Shown here piece after piece: positions 1,038-21,920 of a stretch of DNA of 64,000 bases. The notes beneath the pieces are model-generated. The model was not told the DNA's origin. It did not search any database and saw only the letters and a program-made list of their open reading frames with translations. Position 1 is the stretch's first letter. Each line of letters begins with the position of its first letter. The translations under genes and the position numbers were made by a program. The DNA comes from an uncultured Bacillota bacterium. Its GTDB lineage: Bacteria; Bacillota_I; Bacilli_A; RFN20; CAG-288. The stretch covers positions 1 through 64,000 of the forward strand of contig CASFYT010000017.1 in the NCBI GenBank assembly GCA_949299015.1. Direction: 5' to 3'.

Positions 1038-2654
1038 ATGGATTCAAGACTCGAACTGAGATGGGTAGGAAAAGATGAGAAGGTAAGTCTCGAACCTCGG
1101 ATTTTAGTCAAGGATGAATCAAAATCTTTCTCTTATCAACCCGATCAATATGAGAGCATAGTCGAAAGGCGGGGGGGGACAAGAGATAACCTTTTGATCC
1201 ATGGAGATAACCTTCTTGCCTTGAAGGCGTTGGAGCAAAAGTTTTCTGGAAAAATAAAATGCATCTATATCGATCCACCTTATAACACTGGTTCAGCATT
1301 CTCTACCTATGATGATAACCTCGAGCATTCAACATGGCTGTCGTTGATGAAGCCTCGCATAGAAATATTAAGAAAACTTTTGACGAACGATGGAAGTATT
1401 TGGATTAGTATTGATTCTGAAGAATGTCATTACTTAAAAGTGATGGCGGATGAAATTTTAGGAAGAAACAATTTTGTAGAGGAAGTTATTTGGCAAAGGT
1501 CTTATGCGCCGATCAATCTTAAAAAAACATTTTCGCGAAATCATGACTCTATCCTCGTTTATGCAAAAGAGATCTCAGATTTTCAAATCAACTTGCTTCC
1601 AAGAACGGAAAAAGCGGATTCGAACTTTACCAATCCTGATCAAGATCCTAGGGGACCATGGGCTTCAGGGCCAATACAATGTGGGCCTCGTAACGAAAGC
1701 AGGGTCTATCCAATCAAGTGTCCAAGCGGAAAAGTTATTTTCCCTCCCCCGCAGTATTGTTGGAGATATTCCAAGGAAAAATATGAACAGCTAGTTCATG
1801 AAGGAAGAATTTATTTTGGACCGAACGGTGATAATGTGCCAAGGGTGAAACGGTTTTTAAGTGAAGTCAAAAAAGGCATCGTTCCCCTGTCATTGTGGCT
1901 AAGAGATGAGGTTGGAGACAATCAAGAAGCAAAAAAAGAAATTAAGACCCTTTTTGGAAAGAATGTCTTTGACACCCCTAAGCCCGAGAGGCTCATCAAA
2001 CGAATCCTTGACCTTGCCACCAAGCCCGGAGATTGGGTCTTGGATTCTTTCCTTGGCTCAGGAACCACAGCTGCCGTTGCCCAGAAGATGGGAAGACAAT
2101 GGATAGGAATCGAGCTTACGGATGCCGCCTACACTCATGATGTCCCCCGACTGAAGGCTGTCATTTACGGTGAAGATAAAGGAGGTATTACGAAGGAAAC
2201 CCAATATGGAGGTGGTGGAAGCTTTGATTTCTATGAGCTGGCCCCTTCGTTGATTCAATTCGATCAGTTCGATGAGCCCATCATCAGCAAGAAATACAAT
2301 GCTGACATGCTGGCCTCCGCTGTGGCACTACATGAGGGATTCGCCTACTGTCCAGACAAGGAGTGCTTCTGGAAGCAATCGAAGTCCACTGAGAACGCCT
2401 ATCTCTTTGTCACGACGATGCATGTGACCTCTGCTGTTCTGGATACCATCGCCAACCAGATGCAGCCGGAGGAATTCCTAATCATCGCCTGCAAGACGTT
2501 CGAATCCGAATGCGACGGGCTCTATCGGAACATCGCCATCAAAAAGATACCAGAGATGCTTCTTGGAAGGTGCGAGTTCGGGAAGGACAACTATGACCTC
2601 AACATCGTGAACCCGCCCGATTATACAGAGGATGAAGACGATGACAAGGAATAA
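1038..2654 (+). CDS. mod: Type III restriction-modification system DNA methyltransferase (Mod)
   Basis: Predicted N6-adenine DNA methyltransferase of 538 residues that would modify DNA and, in type III systems, supply sequence recognition for the Mod-Res complex. The catalytic motif DPPYNTG begins at Asp79 and the AdoMet-binding FLGSGTT motif at about Phe338. DPPY before FxGxG is the beta-class order typical of type III Mod. The region between them should hold the target recognition domain. The gene overlaps res by 14 nt, so the two are co-translated. Base composition is AT-richer than the downstream housekeeping genes, suggesting acquisition. An in-frame run of eight G (codons 45-47) makes it a candidate phase-variable gene. 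The specificity cannot be read from sequence alone. Confidence 0.93.
   Translation: MDSRLELRWVGKDEKVSLEPRILVKDESKSFSYQPDQYESIVERRGGTRDNLLIHGDNLLALKALEQKFSGKIKCIYIDPPYNTGSAFSTYDDNLEHSTWLSLMKPRIEILRKLLTNDGSIWISIDSEECHYLKVMADEILGRNNFVEEVIWQRSYAPINLKKTFSRNHDSILVYAKEISDFQINLLPRTEKADSNFTNPDQDPRGPWASGPIQCGPRNESRVYPIKCPSGKVIFPPPQYCWRYSKEKYEQLVHEGRIYFGPNGDNVPRVKRFLSEVKKGIVPLSLWLRDEVGDNQEAKKEIKTLFGKNVFDTPKPERLIKRILDLATKPGDWVLDSFLGSGTTAAVAQKMGRQWIGIELTDAAYTHDVPRLKAVIYGEDKGGITKETQYGGGGSFDFYELAPSLIQFDQFDEPIISKKYNADMLASAVALHEGFAYCPDKECFWKQSKSTENAYLFVTTMHVTSAVLDTIANQMQPEEFLIIACKTFESECDGLYRNIAIKKIPEMLLGRCEFGKDNYDLNIVNPPDYTEDEDDDKE
1171..1178 (+). repeat. Poly-G8 tract inside mod
   Basis: Eight consecutive G follow C1170 and form the last bases of codons 45-47 (Arg-Gly-Gly). 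With nine G the frame reads on to TAA four codons past the tract; with seven G it reads on to TGA about seven codons past it. Either slip would inactivate the methyltransferase. Confidence 0.95.
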
Positions 2655-5307
2655 CAAGTTTCCTCAATACACTACTGACTACATTTCACATGCCATGAGT
2701 CTTCGCAAACCGCAGAAGCGGGCATTGGAAATTTTGGATAGCATTGTCAGGGACCTCGACCTTAAGAAGGACATGAATCTTGACACTATTGCCTCGGACA
2801 TTCACGATGTCTACCCCACATTCAATGGATACGATCGTGGATTCATGAATCTTGCGTTTGCTTTGGCCACCGGAGTCGGCAAGACGAGGCTCATGGGTGT
2901 TTTCATAACGTATCTTTACACCAATTTTGGAATACATGATTTTCTTGTTGTCGCCCCATCCCTCACAATCTACAACAAGCTGATAAACGATCTTGGCAAT
3001 CCCGCAAGTTCAAAGTATGTATTCAATGGTCTTGGTTGCTTCAACGGAACACCGGACGTTTTCTCTGGCGATGACTATCTGGAAAAGTCCATAAATGCAT
3101 ATGGCGAAGTCAGAATCTTTGTCTTCAACGCCCAGAAATTCAACAGCGAGAACGAAAATCGAAAGATGAATCGTCTCAACGAAGGTCTTGGTCAAAGCTT
3201 CACCGATTTCCTTTCATCCATAGACGACCTTGTCGTCATCATGGATGAAGCCCACCACTATCGACACAACGAAACCGCCGAGGCCTTGGAGAGAATCCAT
3301 CCGCTATTGGGGCTGGAACTGACAGCCACTCCTTATATTGTTTCCAACAATAAGAAGAAAGGACCTGAGTACTTTGAAAATGTAGTCTATGACTACCCAT
3401 TGGCCAAGTCGATAAGGGACGGATATACCAGAACGCCTTACGTCATGACTCGTTCCGATTTGCTGAAGAGCAATCTAAGCGATGATGAAAAAGACCATAT
3501 GGCGTTGATCGACGGAATTAACTGGCATGAAGAGATGAAAAAGATACTGAGTGCCTACGCAACGGCCAACAACGTGAAGCCGGTGAAGCCGTTCATGCTG
3601 GTTGTCTGCTCGAATATAGATCATGCGAAATCAGTGCTCGATTTCATCAAATCCGATGCTTTTCATAACGGAGACTACAAGGAAAAAGTGATTGAAGTCG
3701 ACAGTGGGAAGAGTGGCATGGAGAAGGACGAAAACGTCCAACTGCTTTTGAACGTCGAGAATCCCGACAATAAGATAGAAATCGTCGTCCATGTGAACAT
3801 GCTCAAGGAGGGATGGGATGTCAGCAACCTCTATACCATCGTTCCCTTGCGAACGGCGAACAGCCGTTTGCTGATTGAACAGACCATCGGACGCGGTTTA
3901 CGTCTTCCTTATGGAAAGAGAACTGGAGAAAAGTGGGCGGATTCGGTGATGATGACGGCACATGAAAACTTCGAAGCAGTCGTTGCCGAGGCGAGGTCCG
4001 AAGACAGCATTCTCAGAAAAGAGAATATTATCGATGTGAAGGACCTTTCCATGTCACATCCAATTCAAGCTTCCGTAAACATAAAACTTTTTGACACCAC
4101 CAATGACGACTTCTATGAAAGAAATCCCGACATGGAAAAGAAGCCCGAACACAAGGACATGGCTAAGAAAATCATTGCGGCCTTCGAAAGCCATCCGCAG
4201 TTTGGCCCCATGATTCGTGGTGAGAAAGCGATTGACGAAATCGCCAAAGAAATTGTTGACAAAGAACCGGACTTAGCTAAGATTATCGATCCTGACAATG
4301 AAGAGTTTTATAAACGTTTCTTAGGCTATACGATAGATAAGTGTGAAGAAGAGAGCAAAAATGCAAAAATAGCGATTCCAAAACTTGAAGTAAGGTCGGA
4401 AGGGGAGGAGAAGCGTTTTATAGAGGACTTTGATTTGGATGTTTCCAACATGAATTACTCACCAATCCCTGACAGCGTTCTGATTCAGAATCTGCTCAAT
4501 AGCGCCGATCAGCTTGAACGCTCCACTATCGAAATCAATTTTCAAAAGGAAAAACCCATCAAGACACTGATTGACCTCCTAAGAGAGAAAAGCCTGATCG
4601 ATTATGATTCGATGGGCGAAACGATCGGCAAGCTGATTTTCCAATTCCTTTCACATCTTAAGGACAAGGGATTCGACAACAAACAAATCCGAAACATTGT
4701 TTTCGCCAACAAAAAGGACATCTCCAACAAAATCTACGACCAGATAGCAAGACATATAAAAATCCATAGTCCCGGACTCATTGAATATATTTCCGACATC
4801 GACACGAAACTAGTTCGGCCCACCTACAACATTGAGCCCGACGAGTCCAATCTGAAGAGTCTTTATGATCACGTTCAACCTAACGAAATCAAATCTTTGG
4901 TATTTAAAGACGGCAAAAAATCCACGCTCAACCTGAACAAGTTCGACAGCGATTCAGAGCACATTTTTGCCATAGTCTGCGATCGATCGGACGAGGTCAT
5001 CCAGTGGCTGCGCCCTGCCCCAACCCAATTCAACATCCATTACAACCATGGGAAAAGATATGAACCTGACTTTGTCGTTGAAACCGAAGATTGCTGTTAT
5101 CTCGTCGAGATTAAGGCCGTCCGGGATGAAAATGACGAAGCGGTGTTGGCCAAAAAGGCAATGGCAGTAAAATACTGTGAGCTGGCCACTGACTGGTGCG
5201 TAAAGAACGGCTACAAACCTTGGGCCTATCTCTTCATCCCACACGATCGAATCACTCTAGTCTCTTCTTTCGACAGTTTTCGCAAAGGCTTTGTTGTCAA
5301 GGATTGA
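2641..5307 (+). CDS. res: Type III restriction enzyme, Res subunit
   Basis: 888-residue superfamily 2 translocase/endonuclease that works with Mod. Walker A is ATGVGKT (residues 76-82), the Walker B box is DEAH (202-205), and TATP and GRGLR (from about 417) supply later helicase motifs. A C-terminal PD-(D/E)xK nuclease is visible as EPDFVVE (Asp about 810) and VEIKA (Glu about 823). The ATG at 2641 was chosen because AGAGG at 2627-2631 is correctly spaced; an ATG at 2632 lies directly on that site. It overlaps the end of mod. All catalytic motifs look intact, so the nuclease may become a liability when the mod poly-G tract slips, unless it needs Mod to cut, as type III enzymes do. Confidence 0.93.
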   Translation: MTRNNKFPQYTTDYISHAMSLRKPQKRALEILDSIVRDLDLKKDMNLDTIASDIHDVYPTFNGYDRGFMNLAFALATGVGKTRLMGVFITYLYTNFGIHDFLVVAPSLTIYNKLINDLGNPASSKYVFNGLGCFNGTPDVFSGDDYLEKSINAYGEVRIFVFNAQKFNSENENRKMNRLNEGLGQSFTDFLSSIDDLVVIMDEAHHYRHNETAEALERIHPLLGLELTATPYIVSNNKKKGPEYFENVVYDYPLAKSIRDGYTRTPYVMTRSDLLKSNLSDDEKDHMALIDGINWHEEMKKILSAYATANNVKPVKPFMLVVCSNIDHAKSVLDFIKSDAFHNGDYKEKVIEVDSGKSGMEKDENVQLLLNVENPDNKIEIVVHVNMLKEGWDVSNLYTIVPLRTANSRLLIEQTIGRGLRLPYGKRTGEKWADSVMMTAHENFEAVVAEARSEDSILRKENIIDVKDLSMSHPIQASVNIKLFDTTNDDFYERNPDMEKKPEHKDMAKKIIAAFESHPQFGPMIRGEKAIDEIAKEIVDKEPDLAKIIDPDNEEFYKRFLGYTIDKCEEESKNAKIAIPKLEVRSEGEEKRFIEDFDLDVSNMNYSPIPDSVLIQNLLNSADQLERSTIEINFQKEKPIKTLIDLLREKSLIDYDSMGETIGKLIFQFLSHLKDKGFDNKQIRNIVFANKKDISNKIYDQIARHIKIHSPGLIEYISDIDTKLVRPTYNIEPDESNLKSLYDHVQPNEIKSLVFKDGKKSTLNLNKFDSDSEHIFAIVCDRSDEVIQWLRPAPTQFNIHYNHGKRYEPDFVVETEDCCYLVEIKAVRDENDEAVLAKKAMAVKYCELATDWCVKNGYKPWAYLFIPHDRITLVSSFDSFRKGFVVKD

Positions 5308-5313
5308 TTTTGC

Positions 5314-5470
5314 TTATTCGGGACAAATTTTAACTGTTGAGAGTCCATTCTTTGTCTTGGCTAGCCTTGAATCGCTGAGCAAGGAAGTGCAGAGAGGCAT
5401 CGTATTGTTGGCATCGGTAGAGTCGTCAGAACGATAGAGAATCCTAAACAATCCACTTTCAGAACGGGAT
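5314..5470 (-). pseudogene. Possible 3' remnant of a gene encoding SGLFRILYR
   Basis: On the minus strand a frame runs from about 5470 to a stop at 5314 and encodes SGLFRILYR followed by a Ser/Asp/Thr-rich tail. The core peptide matches one on the plus strand near 440-475 with mostly synonymous DNA differences. No start codon or ribosome site is attached. It is probably a truncated relic beside the restriction island; the family is not recognised. Confidence 0.3.
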
Positions 5471-5494
5471 CTTTTTTGGAGAAAGGACGTGTAA

Positions 5495-5500
5495 TATACT
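5495..5500 (+). promoter_or_regulatory. -10 box of the helicase/NUDIX operon
   Basis: TATACT ends 10 nt before ATG 5511, so transcription should start about 4 nt before that ATG. There is no Shine-Dalgarno, so the message looks leaderless. A TTG at 5502 in the same frame would lie upstream of the predicted transcript start and was rejected. Confidence 0.55.
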
Positions 5501-5510
5501 GTTGAAGACC

Positions 5511-8429
5511 ATGAAAGATCATAATGTCGATGACATCGACCGCGTCTATGCCGATATCGACAAAGCCTTGAGAAAGGCCTTCCTCGACCGGACGATCGAG
5601 AGCCGGCAGGCGGCAGAACCGGCCTTTCTTTCCAATGATGCAAAGAAGAATCGAAAGGTGATCAACGCCCTTCGGGAAGAGCTGTACAAGGCGGATTCTT
5701 TTGCCATCTCTGTCGCCTTCATCACGAAGGAGGGACTCCAGCTCTTCAAGGAGGTTTTCTTCGAATTGCAGAAGAGAGGTGTCCAGGGGCGCATCTTGAC
5801 GACGGACTATCTCTGCTTCACGGATCCGGAAGCTCTGAAGGACATCCGAGACCATCTCCCGAACATCGAGGTCCGCATGTACAAGACGGCCTCTTCCCAT
5901 GGCGAAGGCTTTCATACTAAGGGCTACTTGATTCGACAGGGAGAGGTCTACAAGCTGATCATCGGCTCCAGCAACATGACGGCCTCCGCTCTTTCGACCA
6001 ACAAGGAATGGAACACGAAGCTCGTCTCGACGCGTAAAGGGCAGTTTGGCGCGGAGGTCCTGGAGGAATTCGAGTCCCTGTGGAACGAAGCGACGCCTCT
6101 TGGGGAATACCTTTCGACCTACGAGAACATCTATGGAAAGCAAAAGGAAAGGGAGAAAAGACAAGAAGGACTTCCGAATCAGGAAGAGACCCTTAGGCCA
6201 AACCATATGCAGATCGAGTTCTGTCAGCGTCTCCGAAAGATGATAGAGGATGGGAACCGGAAGGGGCTGCTCATCTCGGCAACAGGGACGGGAAAGACCT
6301 ATGCTTCCGCCTTCGCCCTTCGCGAGCTTCGGGCCCGTCGCGTCCTCTTTCTCGCGCATAGGACACCATTGCTTGGTCAGGCCATCCGTTCCTATCGCCG
6401 CATCATGCCCTTGGAGGCGACCTTTGGGATCCTTACGGGCGACAAATCCATTGTTCGGAACCTCCCTTCCGTTGAGGAATATCGACCGGGGAAGGAATAC
6501 GACTTTCTCTATTCTACATGCGAGATGATGGCCAAGGAGTGCCAGCGGAATAGCTTTTCTCGGGAGGCCTTCGACTATATCGTCATCGACGAAGTCCACC
6601 GTGCCGGTTCACCCACCTACCGGAAGATCATCGAACATTTCCGACCGAAGTTTCTTCTTGGCATGACGGCGACGCCGGAACGAACGGAAGACGAATCGAT
6701 GATATATCGCATGTTCGATCATAACATCATCTTTGAAATTCGTTTACAGGATGCCATTGAATATGAACTTCTTTGCCCTTTCCACTATTACGGAATCACC
6801 GATTTGGTTGGAATCGACGACCATTCTTACGACCCATCTCGCTTTCCCTCTCTTTTTTCGGATCAGCGCGTGGACTTCATCCTTCAGAAGAGTGCCGACT
6901 ACGGCTATAGCGGAGATCGTTTGCGCGGCCTGATCTTCACCTCGTGCAAACGCGACGGAAAGGAATTGGAAGGGCAGTTGAGAAGAAGGGGATTTCGCGC
7001 TCGTTTCCTTTCTGGGGAAGACGATTCAAGGACGCGGGAGGAGACGATACGCCAGCTCGAGGAAACCGACGGCTCTCGCCCCTGCCTTGACTACATCATC
7101 ACGGTCGACATCTTCAACGAGGGCGTCGACATTCCGGAGGCGAACCAGATCATCCTTCTGCGCCCGACAGTCTCGACGATCGTCTTTGTCCAGCAGCTTG
7201 GAAGGGGCCTTCGCAAGTGGAAGGGAAAGGACTACGTCGTCATCCTCGACTTCATCGGAAACTATGCCAACAACTACATGATTCCTCAGGCCTTTGCCTC
7301 TTCGGGGGACAAGGAAGCCGCGAGAATGGTCGTCGCCTCGGGTTACCTGCCGGGAGTCTCGACGATTGAGTTCGACGAAATCGCTCGGGGAAGGATCTTC
7401 GATTCCATCCGAAAGGCGAACTTCGACAGCCTGAAAGGATACCGAGCGGAGTACCTTCACCTCAAGAACAAGCTCAATCGAATTCCATCTCTGGTCGACT
7501 TCCTGCAGTATACCGACTTCGATCCCGTGCGAATCTTCCTGAATCAGGCCACCTCCTATCCGGCATTTCTGAGGAAAATCAACGAAAAGAGCTTTTCCGA
7601 TGCCGAGCTCGGCTACCTGGAGACTTTGACCCGCGCCCTTGGCAAGGGACTTCGTCTTGACGAGGGGAACGTGATGGAGAGCCTGCTCCAGAGAAAGGGA
7701 TTTTCCGATGTCGAACAGGAGCTTTCGCTATCTTCCGCTCGGAGGACGGCCCTCCTGCACCTTTTCCAGGATTCCTATTTTCCAGGGCAGAGGGGAAAGT
7801 TCCCCATTGTCGACGAAGACGGAAAACTGACATTGGAGTTTCGGAGATTGTGCCAGGAAAGGGAATTCCGGCGCGAGGTCGACGACCTCCTGCTCTTTTC
7901 GCGGATGCGCCACGAACGAAAGTATGGAAGGAACTATCGCGAGACCGGGTTCACCCTGTTCGAACGCTATTCGCGCGATGACGTCTCGCAGCTCCTCGAC
8001 CTCCCTAAGAGCCATTCCTCGACGCTCTACGGCTACCAGTTCCTCAAGGAAAGCAGGACGTTTCCCATCTTCGTCAACTACCTCAAGGAGCCCGGCATCT
8101 CCGACCTGATCCGTTATGAGGACCGGTTCGACGGCCCACAGGTTTTTTCCTGGAATTCGCGCCATGGAGAAAGGGAGGATTCCAAGAACATGGAAGCCTT
8201 GATCCACCACCAGGAGCGGGGGACGAAGGTCTATCTCTTCGTCCGCAAGAGCACGAAGGACCGGGGAGAGCGGGCCCTGCACTATTTTCTCGGGGAGATG
8301 AAGGTCCGCGACCATCATCCCTTCGTCCGGAGCGGTGCGAACTACGTCCATTTCACCTTCGAGCTGATGGATGAGGTCCGCCAGGACATCTTCGACTATC
8401 TAAGGTCGGACATCGAGGGCAGCCGATGA
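5511..8429 (+). CDS. PLD-nuclease / SF2 helicase / DUF3427 protein
   Basis: 972-residue multidomain protein. The N-terminal part is a phospholipase-D-type (HKD) nuclease with HTK at 135-137 and GSSNMT around Asn155. A superfamily 2 helicase follows: Walker A ATGTGKT (257-263), box DEVH (from 360), TATPE, and GRGLRKW near 564. The remaining C-terminal 350 or so residues resemble the DUF3427 domain usually found on such helicases. Family members are commonly regarded as DNA-processing or defence proteins, but no reaction is firmly assigned. Its stop overlaps the NUDIX gene start by 4 nt (ATGA), so the two are probably co-translated and act together. It sits directly after the type III system, reinforcing the idea of a defence island. 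The single HKD motif suggests a dimeric nuclease. Confidence 0.85.
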   Translation: MKDHNVDDIDRVYADIDKALRKAFLDRTIESRQAAEPAFLSNDAKKNRKVINALREELYKADSFAISVAFITKEGLQLFKEVFFELQKRGVQGRILTTDYLCFTDPEALKDIRDHLPNIEVRMYKTASSHGEGFHTKGYLIRQGEVYKLIIGSSNMTASALSTNKEWNTKLVSTRKGQFGAEVLEEFESLWNEATPLGEYLSTYENIYGKQKEREKRQEGLPNQEETLRPNHMQIEFCQRLRKMIEDGNRKGLLISATGTGKTYASAFALRELRARRVLFLAHRTPLLGQAIRSYRRIMPLEATFGILTGDKSIVRNLPSVEEYRPGKEYDFLYSTCEMMAKECQRNSFSREAFDYIVIDEVHRAGSPTYRKIIEHFRPKFLLGMTATPERTEDESMIYRMFDHNIIFEIRLQDAIEYELLCPFHYYGITDLVGIDDHSYDPSRFPSLFSDQRVDFILQKSADYGYSGDRLRGLIFTSCKRDGKELEGQLRRRGFRARFLSGEDDSRTREETIRQLEETDGSRPCLDYIITVDIFNEGVDIPEANQIILLRPTVSTIVFVQQLGRGLRKWKGKDYVVILDFIGNYANNYMIPQAFASSGDKEAARMVVASGYLPGVSTIEFDEIARGRIFDSIRKANFDSLKGYRAEYLHLKNKLNRIPSLVDFLQYTDFDPVRIFLNQATSYPAFLRKINEKSFSDAELGYLETLTRALGKGLRLDEGNVMESLLQRKGFSDVEQELSLSSARRTALLHLFQDSYFPGQRGKFPIVDEDGKLTLEFRRLCQEREFRREVDDLLLFSRMRHERKYGRNYRETGFTLFERYSRDDVSQLLDLPKSHSSTLYGYQFLKESRTFPIFVNYLKEPGISDLIRYEDRFDGPQVFSWNSRHGEREDSKNMEALIHHQERGTKVYLFVRKSTKDRGERALHYFLGEMKVRDHHPFVRSGANYVHFTFELMDEVRQDIFDYLRSDIEGSR

Positions 8430-10763: not shown

Positions 10764-11180
10764 ATGGACATCGACCGCCTCTACTGGATGACAGGCAAGT
10801 GCCTGGACTACTGCCAGCGCATCGAACATGACGTCTACCTCCTGCTTTCCCTCCTCTCCCTGCGAAACGGGATGTTGCTTCCCGAGGAGAGAAGGACACT
10901 TGGCCAGGACATCCGTCTTTTGCAGGAGGCGGACGTCTCGCACTTCCTGAGCGACCGCGACTATGGCCTGCTGAGGTCTTTGCGCAACCGTCGTAACCAT
11001 CTCGTCCACGAGCTCTACGCTTCGTTTCGCTATGCGGAGGATGCGGAAGTCGAAGGAAGGCTTTCCGCATCCTTTTCCTTTGCCGAAGAATTCCTCGCGG
11101 ACCTTTCCCTCCTCTGGAAGGCCGTCGAGGATGCCCGAATCCAGGCCTACGAAGCGATGGTCGAGGAGAAAAAGGAATGA
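10764..11180 (+). CDS. HEPN-like helical protein
   Basis: 138 residues, predicted all-helical. RNHLVH at residues 77-82 fits the R-N-x-x-x-H signature of HEPN proteins, many of which are RNases or toxins while others are inactive partners. No nucleotidyltransferase (MNT) antitoxin gene is adjacent, so this is not an ordinary HEPN-MNT module. Its stop overlaps the mutY start (ATGA), implying coupled translation with a DNA-repair glycosylase. The ribosome site is weak. The HEPN assignment rests on one motif and predicted helices. Confidence 0.6.
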   Translation: MDIDRLYWMTGKCLDYCQRIEHDVYLLLSLLSLRNGMLLPEERRTLGQDIRLLQEADVSHFLSDRDYGLLRSLRNRRNHLVHELYASFRYAEDAEVEGRLSASFSFAEEFLADLSLLWKAVEDARIQAYEAMVEEKKE

Positions 11181-12202
11181 TGGAAAGCTTTGCCCGACTC
11201 CTCCTTGCCTGGTACCGCGAACACGGACGGTCCCTTCCCTGGAGGAAGGAGAATCCATCCTTCTACGAGGTGCTGGTGAGCGAGACGATGCTCCAGCAGA
11301 CGCGGGTCGACAAGGTCCTTTCCTACTACGCGCGTTTCCTCCAGCGCTTTCCGACGCTCCAGGCCCTCGCCTCGTCCTCGGAGGAGGACGTCCTTCGGCT
11401 CTGGGAGGGACTGGGGTACTATTCCCGCGCCCGGAACCTGCGCCGGGCCGCCCTCGCCCTCGCGCCGATGGATCCTCTTCCTTCCACGCTGGAGGAACTG
11501 ATGGCTTTGCCCGGAATCGGGGAGTACACGGCCAAGGCGCTTCTCTCCATCCACTACCACCGTCCGGCCTTCGCCGTCGACGGAAACCTGCTTCGCGTCC
11601 ATGGCAGGCTGCAGATGTCCGACGCTCCCCTTTCTCTCCGCCGGAAGGAGGCGGAGTCCTTCTTCCAGGAAAGGCTGGGAAAAGTTGACCCCAGCGACGC
11701 CAACCAGGCACTGATGGACCTCGGGGAGCTCGTCTGCCTTCCCCACGGGAAGCCACTCTGCTCCCTCTGTCCCCTTTCCCCGTTCTGCAGGGCCCACCGG
11801 GAGGGAAGGGAGAGGGACTACCCTCCGCGCCAGGAGAAGAAAGCGCCCCGCCTTGTCTTCCTGACGGTCTTCCTTCTCGTCCATGACGGGAAGGTCGCAC
11901 TCCGGAAGAGGGACGGAAAGGGACTCCTGTCCGCGCTCTACGAGTTCCCCAACGTCGAGGGAAGGGCCGAGGACGAAAAGACCCTCGCTCGGATATTTCG
12001 CGAGTGGGGCCTCGACGTGGAGCAGGTGGAGCTTCTTCCTTCCAGCCGCCACCGCTTCTCCCACCTGGTCTGGGAGATGACCAACGTCCGCGTCGTCCTG
12101 CGGTCGCTGCCGCAGGATCCCAGCCTCCTCTTCGTGGAGCGGGAAAGGATCGCGGACTATCCGATTCCATCGGCCTTTTGCGAGATTCGGCGGCATCGAT
12201 AA
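11177..12202 (+). CDS. mutY: A/G-specific adenine DNA glycosylase
   Basis: 341 residues. It removes adenine mispaired with 8-oxoguanine in base-excision repair. The helix-hairpin-helix LPGIGEYTAKAL is followed by the catalytic Asp in AFAVDGN. Four cysteines for a [4Fe-4S] cluster are present (CLPHGKPLCSLC, then PLSPFC), but the first gap is seven residues rather than the usual six. The C-terminal third is the MutT-like domain that recognises 8-oxoguanine (RKRDGKGLLSALYEFP). It overlaps the HEPN-like gene by 4 nt and ends at a strong terminator. Confidence 0.95.
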   Translation: MMESFARLLLAWYREHGRSLPWRKENPSFYEVLVSETMLQQTRVDKVLSYYARFLQRFPTLQALASSSEEDVLRLWEGLGYYSRARNLRRAALALAPMDPLPSTLEELMALPGIGEYTAKALLSIHYHRPAFAVDGNLLRVHGRLQMSDAPLSLRRKEAESFFQERLGKVDPSDANQALMDLGELVCLPHGKPLCSLCPLSPFCRAHREGRERDYPPRQEKKAPRLVFLTVFLLVHDGKVALRKRDGKGLLSALYEFPNVEGRAEDEKTLARIFREWGLDVEQVELLPSSRHRFSHLVWEMTNVRVVLRSLPQDPSLLFVERERIADYPIPSAFCEIRRHR

Positions 12203-12230
12203 CGAAAAAGGGGCTTTCGCCCCTTTTCGT
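12202..12230 (+). terminator. Terminator after mutY
   Basis: Long stem ACGAAAA..GGGGC / GCCCC..TTTTCGT with a short TTTC-type loop, starting right at the mutY stop. The A/T arms make it usable in either direction. Confidence 0.8.
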
Positions 12231-12324
12231 GTTCCCGGAAGATTATCGACGTCCCAGGGAGATTCCTGTCGTCGACGACGAAGACAGGATACGATAAATG
12301 TTAGCTATAGTCAACAAAAATCTG

Positions 12325-12333
12325 TGATAAACT
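12325..12333 (+). promoter_or_regulatory. Extended -10 promoter of tag
   Basis: TGA followed by TAAACT (12328-12333), ending 6 nt before ATG 12340. No ribosome site fits in the gap, so the transcript appears leaderless. Confidence 0.55.
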
Positions 12334-12339
12334 CGGATC

Positions 12340-12927
12340 ATGGAAGAAAAGATCTGCCCCTGGGCCCTGAAGGACCCCGACAGCCGAAAGTATCATGACG
12401 AACGCTGGTGCCGCCTCGTCCTGGAGGACCGGGAACTCTTCGCCCTCTTGGAGCTGGAGAGCTTTTCCGTGGGCCTCTCCTGGCGCCTGATCCTGAAGAA
12501 GGAGGCGCTCCTTCGCGCCGCCTTCGACTCCTTCGATCCCGTCCTTTGTGCCCAATACGGTCCCGAGAAGGTCGAGAAGCTCCTCGCCTTGCCGGGGATG
12601 ATCCATAGCCGGGGGAAGGTCGAGTCCGTGATCAAGAACGCGAAGGCCTTCCTCGCCGTCCAGGAGGAATGCGGGACGTTCCTTTCCTATCTCCGTTCCT
12701 TTGCAAAGGGAGATAGGATCGACCATCGGCTTTCCCGCGAAGAGGACAGGCCTACGGTCGATTCTCTCTCGAGGGCGCTGGCGAAGGACATGAAGAAGAG
12801 GCACTTTTCCTATCTCGGACCGGTCATCCTCTATTCCTACCTGCAGGCCGTCGGGATCGTCGACGACCACCTCGTCACCTGTCCCTTCCACGACAAGTCG
12901 GAGTTCGAAGGAAGCGGAAGGGACTGA
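12340..12927 (+). CDS. tag: DNA-3-methyladenine glycosylase I
   Basis: 195 residues, standard family length. It excises 3-methyladenine from alkylated DNA. Family signatures are visible: CPW near the N-terminus, YHDERW (about residues 19-24), GLSWRLILKK and AAFDSFDP. The structural zinc ligands are conserved as Cys6, His20 and a C-terminal H-x3-C (DHLVTC). It follows mutY, so two base-excision glycosylases are neighbours although separated by a terminator and a separate leaderless promoter. It converges on the NACHT gene with 34 nt between stops and no clear hairpin. Confidence 0.95.
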   Translation: MEEKICPWALKDPDSRKYHDERWCRLVLEDRELFALLELESFSVGLSWRLILKKEALLRAAFDSFDPVLCAQYGPEKVEKLLALPGMIHSRGKVESVIKNAKAFLAVQEECGTFLSYLRSFAKGDRIDHRLSREEDRPTVDSLSRALAKDMKKRHFSYLGPVILYSYLQAVGIVDDHLVTCPFHDKSEFEGSGRD

Positions 12928-12961: not shown

Positions 12962-15900
12962 CTAGGGACCGACGGTCAGCTCGACGTCCTTGTCCCCGAA
13001 AAGGACGTGGCGGATCTCGTCAAGGCGGAGAGGTCCTTCCTCTCCGACGATGCGGACGCCCTTCCGGAAATCAATTCGTTCCAGGCGGTGCATGCGGCGG
13101 AAGGAATCCGGATGGACGAGGACCTCCTCGAGGAAGGTGAGGCTGCGGATCTTGTTGGCGTTCCAGAAGGCGCGCGGGCCGACGGTGCGGACGGCAAAGG
13201 CGTTGTCGCCCTCGTCGGAGGAGAGACCCTGGCAGCGGATGCTCTCGAGCCGGAAGCAGTCCTCGAAGCAGCTCTCCTCGAGCGTCTCGACGGCGGGAAG
13301 GGTGACCTTGGCGAGGCTGCGGCACTTCTCGAACATGTGGGCGGGCGCCGAGGAAAAGCGGGCGTCGCGGAAATGGACCTGCTTGAGCCTTCCGCAGCGC
13401 TCGAAGAGCCAATCGCCGACCTGTTCGATCCCGGTAAGTTCGAAGGATTTCAGGTTGGGCATCGTCTCGAAGAGGTAGGCGTGGATCTCCGTGACGCTTC
13501 CGCCGGCGGCGAAGGTCTTGTCCGTGACCTGCACGATTCCGTCCTTGTGGAAGAGATGGTCGAGGCGATAGGTCCCGTCCTGACGACGGACGAGGATGGC
13601 GCAGTTGCACTTCTCCTCGTCCTGCTTGATCCGGAAGTGCGGATCGGCGAGGATTTCCCTTCCTTCCTCCCGGCCCTCGAAGGCCCACTGGGAGCAGAGG
13701 ACTTGTCCTTCCGGACGGAAGCGGAAGGCGAAGGGGGAGGAGGGATCCTCCTTTTCCTCGAGGAGGGCGAAGGCAAAGTAGTCGATCTGCTCGACGCTGG
13801 GCGGAAGCGTCAGCTGCAGGCCCGGAATGTCGCTGAAGGCGAGGCGGGCGATGTGCCGAAGGGAGGAGAAGGAGGAGAGGTCCATCTTCCGGAGGGAACG
13901 CATTCCGGAGAAGAAGAAGGGAAGGATTTCCGTCATCTCCGGGGAGAGGTGCAGGTCGTCGAGGCTTGTGACGCTCTTGCAGCGGAGGAACATGCCTTCG
14001 GAGAATTCGCCGTGGACCTTTCCGTCGGGATCGCGGACGTCGATGCGCTGGAGGCTGGCGTCGCTCTCGAAGAGGAAGGGACCGATCTTCAGCGGGTGGC
14101 TGGTGGGCAGGGTGACGTGCGTCAGCAGGAAGTTGTCCTCGAAGACGCTCTCGCCGAGGATGACGACGGACTCCGGGACGTTGATCTCCTCGAGACGGTT
14201 GAGGTCGTAGAAGGCGAACTCCTGGATCTCCACAAGGCCCTCGAAGAGCTGGACGTTCCTCAGCGCGTCGAGCTTGGAGAAGAGCTCGGCCGGAACGGTG
14301 GTCGGATTCCTCTTCCCGGGGTGGACTTCCAGGGTCCTCAGGTTCATGAAGCTCTCCATGTCCTGGCGGGGGATGTCCGTGTCGACGACAAGGGAGAGGA
14401 CCTTCGCCCTCCTCTCTCTTTCGAGCGAGGGCGAGAAGGACGTGAAGGCGAGGCTTTCGTCTTCCCCGCAGGGATAGTCATAGGCGGTCGAAGACGAAGG
14501 GACTTCCTTATTGGCGATGAAGTTGGTCAAATCGAAGATATCGGAGAAGCCAATCATCTTTTTGAGTTCGCTAGGAGAAAGAGAGAGAGGTTCTTCGCTC
14601 AGGATGGAAAGGTTGAGGAGGTCGCGGTACGTCCTCTCTCCGCGTGAGAAGAGCTCGAGGAGATGCGGAATTTGCCAAGGGGCAAAGCGGGGAGTCCGGC
14701 CGTCGCTGGAAAGGCCACGGTGGAGGATGCGGAGGTTTTCTTCCAGGGAACGGTCCTTGTTCCAGCGGTTGTTGACCAAGGCGTCCCGAAGCGCAGAGAG
14801 GGGAAGCCGGAGGTCTTCCAGCAAGACTTCGTCCTTTCTATCGGAAAGGATTCTCTCCATGGAATGGAGGATCAATGACGGATCCTCCGTGAGGGAGGAA
14901 AGCCGATAGAAGAAGTCGTAGTCGAAGGCGGATTTCTCCTCTAAGGAGAATTCGATCGCCCGGCGGTGGAGGAAGGCGATGAGCTCCCTTCCGGAATAGG
15001 TCAGGGTGAGGCTTTCCCCCTTCTCGTCCTCGACGATGCGGGTGCAGTCGGTGTTGCGGGCGAGCTCCTCCAGGAAGAACAGGAGGACGTCCTTCAGGAG
15101 CGACGGATCGCGCTGGGCGAAGGAGCGGAGCAGGAGGTCGAGGCTTGTCCCATCCTCGTCTCCCCGGTTCCCGTTGCGGTTCTCCTCCCAGTCGAAGAGG
15201 AGGATGAAGCGCTTGAGCAGGGTGGGGACCTTCTCCCCGCGAAGGGTCTTCTCGTTGAAGAGCAGGGAAAGCAGGTTCCGGTATTCCTCCTTGGCCAGGT
15301 TCGCCTTCGTCAGGGTATTGTAGAGGTAGGCGGCAGCGAAGAACTCGGTGAAGATCTCGTGGTAGAAGCGCCCCTGGCTGTCGAGCAGGTATTTTTCGTC
15401 CTTGAAGTAGCGAAGGCGGTCGTAGAACTGGGAGGAGAGGCCCTGGTTGAGATAGGAGGTCAGGTCGAGCCAGTCGATCCTCTCTCCGCTCTCCCGGGTC
15501 AGGACGGCGTAGAATCCGAGGACTTCCAGGAAGCAGACGTCCCTTTCCAGGAGAAGGTTGAAGCGCTTGGGGCAGGTCCTTCCGAGGAACGTGTAGAAGA
15601 TCGCGTCGGAGATGAGCTCCATGATCTTGAGGCTTTCCGTCTCCTCCTTCCTCTCGAGGAAGGAGGGGTTGGTCATCGTGCTGGCGAAGAAGGGGTTGAC
15701 GTTTCCGTAGAAGGCCTGGAGGACGTCGAGCTTGCGCTCGATCTCCTGGATCTTCCGGTCGCATTCCCCTTCGTCGAGAATCCTCTCGGTGAGGATGGAG
15801 GAGCGGACCTTCCTGAGGAACGCCTGGCATTCGCCCTCGTCGAACTCATGGATGTCGAACAGGACGACGGGGATGCGGGAATCCGCCTTCTTCTCCTCCG

Positions 15901-17509
15901 CCCGCATTCTCCCGGCCGCGGAGAGGGCGTCCTTCAGGAGGAAATGGTCCTTGTCGGTCTTGATGAACTCGACGGCGTTCTGGCGGGAGGTGATGGCCAC
16001 GTAGCTCTCCCCCTCCCTCCGGGGCTGCTTCTTGAGGAACTTCCGGATCGAGAGCAGGAGCGGAAGGCTGTCCATGCTGTTCTCGTCGACGGCGTCGAAG
16101 AGGAAGAAGGGAGTATACCCTTCCTGGAGCAGGTGGCCGAAGAAGTCGGAAGCGCAAAAGGACGTCTTCGACCCGAGGAGCTCGAGTTCCTTGCGGCACT
16201 CGCCGTCCGTCGTGTCCTCGGGACGAAGCTCGAGGAAGGCGGAGAAGTTCGACTCAAGGACGTCGTGCCGCCTTGTTCCCGTGTCGTCCTCGAGATTGTT
16301 GAGGTCGATGAAGATGGGGAAGGCCTTTGGCAGGGTCAGATCCTTCTTCTCCGTCGGATGGAGAAGGGCCTTCCGCAGATAGCAGAAGAGGGAGAGGAGG
16401 AGGGTCGACTTTCCGGCCCCGGCGGGCCCGACGAAGAGATGGAAGTCCCCCTTGGAGAAGGCGTTGAGAAGCGCGCCGGTCTCCTGGTAGAGGTCGATGG
16501 TCTGGTTGTCGATGCAACGGCTGACTTCCTTCTCGATGTATTCGTCCTCGAAGTTCTCCAGGAGGTCTCGGTCCTCGGTTCGGAACTTCATGAGGTGGAT
16601 CTTTCCCTGGGGAAGGATCTTCTTGACGCGGGACTCCTCGTAGTAGGCCCGAAGGAGGACGTCCGTCAACTCCCGCCTCGTCAGACGGGAAAGGGCGCCC
16701 TTGGGGCGCTGGCAGGCCTGCCAGAGGGAATCGAAGCATTGGACGGAGCGGGAAGGCGAATGCCTCCCTGGCCGTTTCTTCTTCGCGTCGGATCCTCCCT
16801 CATCCGTCCTTGTCCTTTGTTCTTCGTCCTGGCGGTTCGACCGGAGGTCATAGAAGAGGACAGGGCCCTTTCCGCAGCGGAGATAGGCCTTGAGGCGATG
16901 GGAGGCAAGAAGGCGCTGATAGAACGTTCCGCCGTTGACCAGGACCGAGAGGGCTCCCTCCGGCTTCTTGACCTTCTCCTTGGCGACGATGAGATAGATG
17001 GTATTGAAGTTCTTCTTCCCGTCGTCGGCCTCGGCCATCCGCTCCTTTTCCAAGAGCAGGACGTGGACTTCCGGCATGGTCTTCAGGATCGAACGCACCA
17101 GGAAGCAGTGGAAGAGAAGGTATCCCAGTCCCAGGAGGACGTAGAGCAGGAAGAGGAAGACGATGGAGACGATGAGGTGTTCGCTGTCCAGCCCGAAGAG
17201 GACGGAGAGGGTATCCAGGGGGACGAGGCCGAAGCTGTTGAAGAAGTCCTCGAAGATGCTGACGGAGGTGTCGAAGCTGCTTTGGTCGTGAATGCCGATC
17301 ACCAGCAGGATGACGGTCATGAGCAGGAAGGGAATGAAGCCCAGCATGAGCTTGGAGACGACGGAACGAAGCTTCACGAGCCTTTCGGGCTTCTCTAAGT
17401 TCCCTCGCTTCTCCATGACGAAGATCGTGACAAAGGCCGTGACGCCGAACGCGAAAAGAAGCGCGGAGACGATTGAGAGAAAGAACGTAAAGCTCGTGAT
17501 GTTTTCCAT
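12962..17509 (-). CDS. Membrane-anchored NACHT-type STAND ATPase with BspA-like LRRs
   Basis: 1515 residues. Three hydrophobic helices lie at the N-terminus (about 5-30, 52-72, 108-132). A charged linker leads to a NACHT-type NTPase: Walker A GPAGAGKST (361-369), Walker B FFLFDAVDE (about 465-475), an ITSRQN sensor-like motif, and EFFAAAYLY about 270 residues later, a hallmark of the NACHT C-terminal helical part. A long helical region follows. From about 1050 to the end, repeats of the type LEEINVPESVVILGESVF resemble BspA-family leucine-rich repeats. The N-terminal helices, NACHT and LRR order mirrors NLR immune sensors; several bacterial NACHT proteins are known phage-defence proteins. Function here is inferred. 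It has its own leaderless-type promoter and stands alone between tag and a bile salt hydrolase. Confidence 0.85.
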   Translation of the reverse strand: MENITSFTFFLSIVSALLFAFGVTAFVTIFVMEKRGNLEKPERLVKLRSVVSKLMLGFIPFLLMTVILLVIGIHDQSSFDTSVSIFEDFFNSFGLVPLDTLSVLFGLDSEHLIVSIVFLFLLYVLLGLGYLLFHCFLVRSILKTMPEVHVLLLEKERMAEADDGKKNFNTIYLIVAKEKVKKPEGALSVLVNGGTFYQRLLASHRLKAYLRCGKGPVLFYDLRSNRQDEEQRTRTDEGGSDAKKKRPGRHSPSRSVQCFDSLWQACQRPKGALSRLTRRELTDVLLRAYYEESRVKKILPQGKIHLMKFRTEDRDLLENFEDEYIEKEVSRCIDNQTIDLYQETGALLNAFSKGDFHLFVGPAGAGKSTLLLSLFCYLRKALLHPTEKKDLTLPKAFPIFIDLNNLEDDTGTRRHDVLESNFSAFLELRPEDTTDGECRKELELLGSKTSFCASDFFGHLLQEGYTPFFLFDAVDENSMDSLPLLLSIRKFLKKQPRREGESYVAITSRQNAVEFIKTDKDHFLLKDALSAAGRMRAEEKKADSRIPVVLFDIHEFDEGECQAFLRKVRSSILTERILDEGECDRKIQEIERKLDVLQAFYGNVNPFFASTMTNPSFLERKEETESLKIMELISDAIFYTFLGRTCPKRFNLLLERDVCFLEVLGFYAVLTRESGERIDWLDLTSYLNQGLSSQFYDRLRYFKDEKYLLDSQGRFYHEIFTEFFAAAYLYNTLTKANLAKEEYRNLLSLLFNEKTLRGEKVPTLLKRFILLFDWEENRNGNRGDEDGTSLDLLLRSFAQRDPSLLKDVLLFFLEELARNTDCTRIVEDEKGESLTLTYSGRELIAFLHRRAIEFSLEEKSAFDYDFFYRLSSLTEDPSLILHSMERILSDRKDEVLLEDLRLPLSALRDALVNNRWNKDRSLEENLRILHRGLSSDGRTPRFAPWQIPHLLELFSRGERTYRDLLNLSILSEEPLSLSPSELKKMIGFSDIFDLTNFIANKEVPSSSTAYDYPCGEDESLAFTSFSPSLERERRAKVLSLVVDTDIPRQDMESFMNLRTLEVHPGKRNPTTVPAELFSKLDALRNVQLFEGLVEIQEFAFYDLNRLEEINVPESVVILGESVFEDNFLLTHVTLPTSHPLKIGPFLFESDASLQRIDVRDPDGKVHGEFSEGMFLRCKSVTSLDDLHLSPEMTEILPFFFSGMRSLRKMDLSSFSSLRHIARLAFSDIPGLQLTLPPSVEQIDYFAFALLEEKEDPSSPFAFRFRPEGQVLCSQWAFEGREEGREILADPHFRIKQDEEKCNCAILVRRQDGTYRLDHLFHKDGIVQVTDKTFAAGGSVTEIHAYLFETMPNLKSFELTGIEQVGDWLFERCGRLKQVHFRDARFSSAPAHMFEKCRSLAKVTLPAVETLEESCFEDCFRLESIRCQGLSSDEGDNAFAVRTVGPRAFWNANKIRSLTFLEEVLVHPDSFRRMHRLERIDFRKGVRIVGEEGPLRLDEIRHVLFGDKDVELTVGP

Positions 17510-18840: not shown

Positions 18841-18917
18841 TAATGTCAAGATTTGCATTTTGGCCGAACGCCACATTCGAAGGCGGCAATGACCCGTCTT
18901 CAAGAAAAGGAGAAACG

Positions 18918-21900
18918 ATGAAATTGAAAAGAAAGATCCTCTGCCCTCTATTCCTGATCTCGCTCTTCCTTCCCTCCTGCAGCTCGATTGGAACGACGTC
19001 GTCCATCCAAAACATCGGCCAGACGAGCACGCCCGTTGAATCCAGCGACACGTCCTCCTCCTCTTTCTCCTCATCCAGCTCCTATCCCTATGTGACCGAG
19101 ACGCTCCGGGAAGGATTCCATGTCCAGCCGGGCATCCCTGATCGCAACGGGACGATCGACACCACGGCCTTGTCTGGGCTTCTCGATACGATCGAGGACC
19201 GATTGGACCTTGGTTCCGTCTTCTCGAAGTACCGATCGAATCTGTCGGAGGCCACTCCCCTGCTTCGTCAGGGAGGATGGACGACACAAACGATAAAGGA
19301 AATCAGGGACGTTCTCTCTTCGGAGAGCCTCTTCCACGCCGCCCACTCAGGCAAGGGGTTTCGCGACGCCGTCGAGCTCTCGGAGAGTGAGATTCACGCA
19401 ATCTACGGCAAGGCGATTCAGGACATCATCCATCTCTTGGACGACGATCAGCTTTCCTCCCTTCTTTTCGCCATGACAAGGGTGGGGATCCTCAGTCAGT
19501 CGAACATCGTCCTCTCCTTCTCGTTGCTGGAAAGCGTCTCTCTTTCGATGATTGAATCCATCGCGTCCTCCAAGGAGGTTCAATCGGACTTCATGGCCAA
19601 CCAGTATTGGCAGGGGATGCTTTCGTCCACTCCTCTCTCCTCGACGTTCCTGACCTTCCTTCAAAGCGACGAGTTCAATGAGATATCCTGGTACATCTTC
19701 CGGATCGTGGCCAATGTCGTTCGTGAGATCGCGGAAAAGATTCCTGTCGAGGACGTCATTGCCTTTATCCAGAACATGCGGGAGCTTTCCTCGGGCCCCG
19801 AGGAGTTGACTCCCGAAATGCTTGCCGCCATCTTTCCGATGTTTGGCCGTATCTTCGACGAGTGCTTCTGCGATCGTCAGTCTTTTGCGACGCTTGCCGA
19901 AATGATGCGGGATGCCCTGATTGAGGCGAAAGGATCGGCCAGCACCCTTGATTTCGTATCGAATGCGGGGTCGGACAACATCGTCACGGTTTCCCAGGAA
20001 GGCGAAGATACCGACGGCATCCTTGAGATTCTGAAGAAGTCCGACGACTTGTTCAATGTCTTGAAGTTTGCGGCTCTTTTGGTCAGGAACATGACGACGG
20101 AGGATTTCCGTTCCCTGATTGAAATCGATAGGCTGGACGATTCCGACGAGGAAGTGACGATGCAAAACGGGCGTCTGATCGTTCTTTTCAGCAAGATGTA
20201 CGTCACGAACATGACTCGCTTCGGGGCCGATTCGAATCAGGTCATCTCCAGCATCGAAGATCTGATTCCGGATTTCCTGTCCGTTGTCATGGGTACAAAG
20301 ATCTCCCTGAGCGAGGTTCGGGATGAATCCAACGTCTACCTTGCCGAATTCCGAAGCGATTCCGTCAATATCAATTCTCGATTAGCTGAAGATGTGGTGA
20401 ATCTCATCGAATCGTCGGCTCAACATGAACTGGAGAGCCTGAGCCTGGCGGATTGTGAAGAGATTGTGGGAGAATTTACCTCGATTGGCGAAAGATTTGG
20501 TCTCGACGATTGGAATTCGTATCGATATCGAATCGAAATCCGCCATCAATACCAAGTCGGGGAAGCCCCCGTGGTGAACGTATGGTCCGACCAGGAATCC
20601 ATCGAGCCGATTCTTTCCGACCTGGAGGGCTTTTCGTCGGTTCAGCCGCATGTCGGAATGGCGTCCGTGAGCTTTTATCAGTACTCCGTTTCCTTCTCCT
20701 ATTCCGTCTACAACGAAGTCTCTCCCGAACTCGTGCAGGACATCTACTTTGCCCGCACGACGAAAACGGAAAACTATTTCGAGCAGCATAGCACCTTGCC
20801 CGACGTCAGGGTCCAGATCGATGGAGAGCTCATCACTGTTCCGCGCCCCGAGATTTTGAACTATTCTTCGACGACGCCCGGACAATACTATGCGACGTTT
20901 CCAATCGGAGAGGAAAAGAAGGACTATCTCGGCTTCACGTACTACATCTATTCGGAAAAGGATTACCAGAAGACCATCGAAATCACGACGCCTCTCTACG
21001 AAGGCCAATGGATAGGCAAGAGGACCGGATTCCAATCGGTGAATACCACGTCGATTACCGTGAACGGAAAGACGAAGGAGTTCGTTGAGGAAGAATACTA
21101 TACCTATCAGAACCAGGGGCTTGTCTTGGATGCCTCGACCGCAGGTAGGAAGGAGTATTATTGGGACGAATCGCAGGCGACGGTCCGTTACGAAGTCCTG
21201 GAATGCGAGAGCATCGAATATGTCTGTGAGTTCAATCCATCCTACACGACTGGATTTTTTGGAATGCCCTTCTTCTTCCCTGGAATGAGAAATGATTTTG
21301 CCTGGGACATGTTCTCCTATTACCCCTATGGAGACGTGGTCGAGACGATTCGGCTGAAGGACGGCACGGTGATTTCAGGGGCCTGCTCGCTGGATGCGGT
21401 CGAGGAGGAAGAACAGGAGCGCTATCCGCTTTCCTTCTTCGGCTTGGAGCCGGAGGACTTCGATGTCGTCGGCGAGCATCGCACTCCCTTTGACGGCCTC
21501 ACGGCAACGATTGAGGACGTGTCGGGCCGCCAGATGCAGATTCCTTTCGAAATCTGCTACACGGTCTTGCCCGGATACTATGAGCAAAGCGGCTCCGGTT
21601 CCGGGGAACTGAAGCTTTATGTCGACGAAGCCGGAAATCTGCTTCGCTACCTCATCAGCTTCGACATCGACATGCACGTGGAGGTGGAATACTACGATGC
21701 GTCCATCGGGATGGCCTATATGAACAAATCCGACAGTAATCTTTCTATCGAAAACGAAGACGACATTTCCTTTGGAACCTTCGACCAAATTTACGTCTAC
21801 GATTATCCCGCCATCAGGGCTCTCGGATCCAGTTCGGGGACCTATGATTTCCGTCTGAACGCCGAAGGCTATCTGTGTTCGCAAATTCCGATGCACTACG

Positions 21901-21920
21901 AAATCCTTCTTCAGGAATGA
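18918..21920 (+). CDS. Large secreted lipoprotein, function unknown
   Basis: 1000 residues from ATG 18918, preceded by AAAAGGAG. The signal peptide has a basic N-region, a hydrophobic core and lipobox L-P-S-C with Cys21 as lipid anchor, followed by a Ser/Thr-rich linker typical of cell-surface lipoproteins. The rest is acidic and Tyr-rich with no recognisable enzyme motif: residues about 60-500 look helical, and 500-1000 look beta-rich. An in-frame start 25 codons upstream overlaps the promoter and was rejected. Expression is probably governed by the poly-G promoter, so it could be an on/off surface antigen. Confidence 0.82.
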   Translation: MKLKRKILCPLFLISLFLPSCSSIGTTSSIQNIGQTSTPVESSDTSSSSFSSSSSYPYVTETLREGFHVQPGIPDRNGTIDTTALSGLLDTIEDRLDLGSVFSKYRSNLSEATPLLRQGGWTTQTIKEIRDVLSSESLFHAAHSGKGFRDAVELSESEIHAIYGKAIQDIIHLLDDDQLSSLLFAMTRVGILSQSNIVLSFSLLESVSLSMIESIASSKEVQSDFMANQYWQGMLSSTPLSSTFLTFLQSDEFNEISWYIFRIVANVVREIAEKIPVEDVIAFIQNMRELSSGPEELTPEMLAAIFPMFGRIFDECFCDRQSFATLAEMMRDALIEAKGSASTLDFVSNAGSDNIVTVSQEGEDTDGILEILKKSDDLFNVLKFAALLVRNMTTEDFRSLIEIDRLDDSDEEVTMQNGRLIVLFSKMYVTNMTRFGADSNQVISSIEDLIPDFLSVVMGTKISLSEVRDESNVYLAEFRSDSVNINSRLAEDVVNLIESSAQHELESLSLADCEEIVGEFTSIGERFGLDDWNSYRYRIEIRHQYQVGEAPVVNVWSDQESIEPILSDLEGFSSVQPHVGMASVSFYQYSVSFSYSVYNEVSPELVQDIYFARTTKTENYFEQHSTLPDVRVQIDGELITVPRPEILNYSSTTPGQYYATFPIGEEKKDYLGFTYYIYSEKDYQKTIEITTPLYEGQWIGKRTGFQSVNTTSITVNGKTKEFVEEEYYTYQNQGLVLDASTAGRKEYYWDESQATVRYEVLECESIEYVCEFNPSYTTGFFGMPFFFPGMRNDFAWDMFSYYPYGDVVETIRLKDGTVISGACSLDAVEEEEQERYPLSFFGLEPEDFDVVGEHRTPFDGLTATIEDVSGRQMQIPFEICYTVLPGYYEQSGSGSGELKLYVDEAGNLLRYLISFDIDMHVEVEYYDASIGMAYMNKSDSNLSIENEDDISFGTFDQIYVYDYPAIRALGSSSGTYDFRLNAEGYLCSQIPMHYEILLQE

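Follow-up and report, generated by a model that had tools for sequence, protein, structure and literature searches.

A probable membrane-tethered NACHT-LRR immune sensor of the NLR type in an uncultured Bacillota bacterium

Domain architecture of a 1515-residue membrane NACHT-LRR protein

The window, that is, the whole 64,000-nucleotide stretch analyzed here (positions 1 to 64,000 of contig CASFYT010000017.1, from a gut-type bacterium), carries on its reverse strand a complete gene for a 1515-residue protein in which an N-terminal membrane block, a NACHT ATPase, a helical region and a leucine-rich repeat (LRR) tail follow one another (Table 1). The intact frame spans precisely the interval of the original prediction, opens with ATG and contains no internal stop codon. 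Within the genus, one other genome (G006; an uncultured Firmicutes bacterium, contig CASDOO010000009.1) carries a 1509-residue homologue, the sole close one of full length, which has the same start methionine (MENIT/MDNIT) and is 55% identical across residues 1-1514. Identity between the two genes at codon positions 1, 2 and 3 is 64, 74 and 42%, indicating that the gene is genuinely coding and that purifying selection acts on it. At 0.85, its GC3 is that of housekeeping genes (0.86 for ileS), which marks it as a long-term resident of the genome. Scans for promoters and terminators at the gene returned nothing above chance.

Table 1. Features of the 1515-residue protein and its gene in the window
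Feature	Residues	Coordinates	Strand	Evidence
TM3-NACHT-LRR_5 gene, complete	1515 aa	12962..17509	(-)	ORF list; full-length homologue P0001, 55% identity
N-terminal membrane block	1-145	17075..17509	(-)	hydropathy and charge in the window, G006 and G153 proteins
NACHT P-loop ATPase domain	~300-560	15830..16612	(-)	motifs; Pfam NACHT in relatives; profile match to 5irm/5irn/5irl
Walker A, GPAGAGKST (K367)	361-369	16403..16429	(-)	G-x-A-G-x-GKS invariant in four aligned members
Walker B / NACHT signature, FLFDAVDE	469-476	16082..16105	(-)	D472, D475 and E476 invariant in four members
Sensor-1-like motif, AITSR	505-509	15983..15997	(-)	R509 invariant in four members
NACHT winged-helix/HD-end motif, FYHEIFTEFFAAAYLY	715-730	15320..15367	(-)	matches FIHRSFQEFFVADYL of an independent NACHT protein
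Alpha-helical region between NACHT and LRR	561-1040	14390..15829	(-)	58% identity to G006; helical in low-confidence model
BspA-type LRR region	~1041-1510	12980..14389	(-)	LRR_5, LRR_8; BspA-like LRR structures in PDB

Three N-terminal helices had been proposed, and hydropathy peaks at residues 13-31, 55-73 and 112-130 bear this out. The loop between the first two helices is basic (+7/-3) and the next is acidic (+0/-7), placing the former inside and the latter outside, and this pattern is common to the window protein and its G006 and G153 homologues. By the positive-inside rule, all three are predicted to be N-out/C-in, so that the NACHT domain and the LRRs would face the cytosol. Compared with G006, the membrane block is the most conserved part of the protein (67% identity), followed by the helical region (58%), the LRRs (57%), the NACHT domain (52%) and the linker (38%). 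The N-termini of the window and G153 proteins align weakly (z=3.2), and common descent of their membrane blocks is thus likely, though unproven. No recognised effector family was found in the N-terminus, and the predicted topology fits a membrane effector and a simple anchor equally well.

The center of the protein contains the classic NACHT set: Walker A, a Walker B of the D-A-V-D-E form, T-S-R and FYHEIFTEFFAAAYL. The combination of Walker A with a D[GAS]hDE Walker B, by which NACHT STAND NTPases are recognised, is therefore present. The motifs named in the original prediction all lie where it had placed them, including EFFAAAYLY at residues 722-730, and the Walker A lysine is invariant. Within the family, FY..IF and one alanine of the winged-helix/HD-end motif do not vary, and the Walker A and B residues, the sensor arginine and the HD-end residues are unchanged in four members of just 22-56% identity. 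The Pfam NACHT model (PF05729; cut-off 26.7 bits) scores below significance on the window protein core (13.1 bits, E=0.085), 19.7 bits on the G580 homologue (E=8e-4) and 27.5 bits, above the cut-off, on the G153 homologue (E=3.2e-6). A profile built from the four family cores had as its best PDB match 5irm/5irn/5irl (E=0.0022), in an alignment that spans Walker A, Walker B and the sensor arginine; 5irm, whose molecule name in the PDB file is 'Uncharacterized protein', we take to be rabbit NOD2. Aligned with hhalign, the core profile gave 70.5% probability against an independent NACHT protein, compared with 4.7% for an FtsK control. Taken together, the relatives, the PDB profile match, hhalign and the motifs give good support to the NACHT assignment originally proposed.

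Consistent with the BspA-like LRR C-terminus that had been predicted, LRR_5 matches the protein at 5.2e-36 in three stretches and LRR_8 at 1.4e-7. An LRR_5 tail is found in the scanned full-length members, and the placement of LRRs C-terminal to NACHT within one ORF is that of a bacterial NLR (NACHT-LRR). LRR identity to G006 (57%, against 55% overall) indicates that this region has not evolved faster than the rest of the protein, whereas a sensor engaged in an arms race would be expected to do so. Two AF2 models were of low confidence (pLDDT 46.5 and 42.4), too low to show the winged-helix/HD arrangement. Foldseek searches with these models returned STAND/AAA+ matches including NLRP7 (the top match of the longer model), CED-4, RdrA and Avs3, with query TM-scores of 0.29 or less; they agree with a STAND reading and we give them little weight.

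Relatives, N-terminal exchange and genomic setting

Four relatives were found (G006, G153, G580 and G524). The same TM3-NACHT-LRR_5 order, which the original prediction had suggested looking for, recurs in the 1315-residue G153 protein (L039:7022-10966), in addition to the full-length G006 homologue. The 1388-residue G580 protein (L032:5610-9773) has the NACHT-LRR chassis with another N-terminus; NACHT, helical region and LRR are retained at 23% identity to the window protein over ~1200 aligned residues. From G524 we recovered a NACHT-LRR_5 fragment whose N-terminal part is lost at the contig start (L040; G524:C39:1-2148). This protein family is rare: it was found in 2 of the 23 genomes sampled at the rank of taxonomic family, in 3 of 279 across the order and in 4 of 395 in a class sample. 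Searches of phages, plasmids and IMG/VR contigs returned LRR-only matches and no homologue, and GTDB contig scans for relatives returned the G006 contig as their sole hit. Weak matches were discarded in G417 (which reads as an AAA/OLD-like nuclease), G443 (a locus with ABC transporters) and G550 (a SNF2-type helicase), and at least two weak Pfam NACHT matches in the order were rejected as FtsK/SpoIIIE-like.

The first ~200 residues of the G580 protein are soluble: they lack a TM helix and bear no resemblance to the membrane block of the window protein (z=-0.8). This N-terminus looks TIR-like: it has KIFICYR near its start, a resemblance at the level of the motif alone. It gave no TIR match in Pfam or the PDB and aligned weakly with a TIR-looking protein (z=1.2). 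With a membrane block in three members and an unrelated soluble N-terminus in G580, the N-terminus behaves as an exchangeable effector position. STAND proteins have a tripartite layout (PMC12169576, PMC12931631), and it is the hallmark of STAND immune receptors that different N-termini are joined to one shared switch and sensor. Another STAND protein of these bacteria, at L024 (G036:C20), has a TIR/SEFIR-looking N-terminus, NACHT and TPR-like repeats in the same order.

When the genomic context of the relatives was examined, defence or conflict genes were found near several of them, as individual loci. The G153 gene has an MvaI/BcnI restriction-modification (RM) system ~1.3 kb to one side, a DpnII-type RM system ~3.6 kb to the other, and glyA adjacent. 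The wider locus (L039, G153:C1:328000-347000) is defence-rich and comprises the DpnII system with two methyltransferases, the TM-NACHT-LRR gene, and the MvaI/BcnI restriction enzyme with a C5 methyltransferase. Located 3' of the G580 gene are a RyR-domain gene, a Nuc_deoxyrib_tr gene and then another membrane gene; the second product, which has a nucleoside-deoxyribosyltransferase-like end, matches the PADLOC 'Effector/TIR' model (4.9e-14). The locus as a whole (L032, G580:C63, 78-9773) is a putative conflict operon encoding the TIR-looking NACHT-LRR_5 protein, the RyR protein (717 aa), the kinase-like and nucleoside-deoxyribosyltransferase/TIR-effector-like protein (373 aa) and the membrane protein (686 aa), and PADLOC named no system there for the NACHT-LRR_5, RyR or 686-residue membrane proteins. 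A RelB/YafQ toxin-antitoxin pair lies immediately downstream of the G006 gene.

In the window, the NACHT gene is immediately flanked by genes for a choloylglycine-hydrolase-family protein and a DNA glycosylase. At a distance of 4.5-12 kb are a type III RM pair (1038-5307) and a type IV restriction enzyme (5502-8429; PLD/ResIII/DUF3427). Together they occupy 1038-8429 (+), with a GC content (0.44-0.54) far below that of the rest of the contig, and, judging by composition, this defence cluster at the start of the contig was probably acquired recently. Between them and the NACHT gene lie mutT, a gene for a zinc-ribbon membrane protein, mutY and tag, and GC3 differs (0.47-0.70 for the RM genes versus 0.85), so that the two are probably separate arrivals. 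The mutY-tag base-excision-repair pair (11177-12927, +) is kept in G010, and the gene 3' of tag varies between genomes; no clean empty site was found, the pair being followed by other genes in G010. We detected no shared synteny between G006 and the window immediately around the NACHT gene, and no conserved partner gene beside the TM members. Further along the window, 18843-21920 (+) encodes a predicted lipoprotein of 1025 residues with no match in Pfam, NCBIfam or PADLOC.

A probable immune sensor and the alternatives

The sequences show directly the order of the domains, conservation of the catalytic motifs, signals of membrane topology, membership of a family and an exchange of N-termini. 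Judged from sequence, the protein is a probable membrane-tethered bacterial NLR-like immune sensor, and the NLR-like reading of the original prediction is well supported by the relatives' shared chassis, the N-terminal swapping and the nearby defence and conflict genes. It probably disables or kills its own cell upon sensing a virus. We give a probability of roughly 0.6 to the following course of events. The protein would act as a stand-alone NLR, anchored by its three helices in the cytoplasmic membrane with NACHT and LRR in the cytosol. At rest, the LRR and helical region would keep the NACHT switch closed and ADP-bound. Contact of the BspA-type LRR region with a molecule that derives from an invader, or that infection has altered, would lead the NACHT domain to open, exchange nucleotide and oligomerise at the membrane, where the clustered three-helix bundles may disrupt the bilayer and so abort the infection. 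Autoinhibition, oligomerisation, membrane damage and the phage trigger are modeled here on established STAND/NLR biology.

The helices might instead merely tether a receptor that watches the inner membrane for phage injection, holin or membrane stress. No pore would then form, and the NACHT/helical region or some recruited partner would provide the output. Consistent with such a sentinel, the membrane block is short and simple, three helices with a charged cytosolic loop, it is well conserved in the TM members, and it belongs to no recognised effector family. However, it is exactly this block that the TIR-looking soluble domain replaces in G580, in what is the effector slot of STAND proteins, and the TM members have no adjoining partner in common; we regard a pure tether as unlikely. 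About as unlikely, in our estimate, is a STAND regulator outside immunity, with a role such as signalling envelope stress or recognising kin in a bacterium that lives with a host. The housekeeping-level GC3 of the gene, the lack of copies on the phages, plasmids and IMG/VR contigs searched, and the choloylglycine-hydrolase and DNA glycosylase neighbors would suit such a role, whereas the very patchy distribution (already within the taxonomic family) and the RM-flanked and RyR/TIR-effector loci of the relatives speak against it. A surface protein or adhesin with a chance P-loop might also be considered, given that most BspA LRR_5 domains belong to surface proteins and that these make up the bulk of the PDB matches. 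This we find very improbable: the ATPase and HD-end residues are invariant among such divergent members, and the charge distribution puts the LRRs in the cytosol.

Relation to known systems and significance

The protein identified here as a probable immune sensor resembles several described systems. NACHT and LRR in one ORF have already been reported in bacteria, according to PMC12169576, which cites Kibby et al. 2023; the bNACHTs characterised there (02, 12, 25 and 32) have N-termini that are nucleases or unassigned, and C-termini of the SNaCT/NCH1 type. Like these, the window protein has an N-terminal effector slot, a central NACHT and a C-terminal sensor, but a membrane block of three helices forms its N-terminus and BspA-type LRRs (LRR_5) its sensor. 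Animal NLRs (NOD2, NLRP7) also join NACHT to LRR, with adaptor domains (such as CARD or PYD) in place of TM helices and LRRs of a different class. The tripartite effector-STAND-sensor layout is common to Avs/AVAST proteins, to which the low-confidence model has a weak fold match (Avs3), whereas the sensor here is LRR_5 rather than TPR-like repeats. No PADLOC Avs model matched, the matches being mad8 (6e-5) and PtuA (1e-3), at the level of the P-loop. KAP P-loop NTPases are likewise membrane-associated STAND-like ATPases. Their TM helices are located within the P-loop domain, whereas those of the window protein (13-130) lie more than 230 residues ahead of Walker A (361).

Because bacterial NACHT-LRR proteins have been described, the window protein is not a new kind. 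The original suggestion of an uncharacterised type thus stands for the combination of TM helices, NACHT and BspA-LRR and falls for bacterial NACHT-LRR as such. Neither the TM3-NACHT-BspA-LRR order nor the replacement of a membrane block by a TIR-looking domain on one chassis was found in the literature searched, which covered the main papers of the subject to a limited extent. It is possible, and we offer it as a tentative idea, that one NACHT and cytosolic BspA-LRR chassis carrying either a built-in three-helix membrane killer (a 'resistosome' that resides permanently in the membrane) or a TIR-like enzyme constitutes a distinct bacterial NLR class, a counterpart of the split between CC-type and TIR-type NLRs in plants.

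If the proposed reading is true, these bacteria would offer a testable single-protein NLR that combines genuine LRRs with a membrane output and whose layout comes near that of the receptors of plants and animals. A further consequence would be that BspA-type LRRs, usually found at the cell surface, can do duty as immune sensors inside the cell, and that one receptor can be fitted with either a membrane or a TIR-like output.
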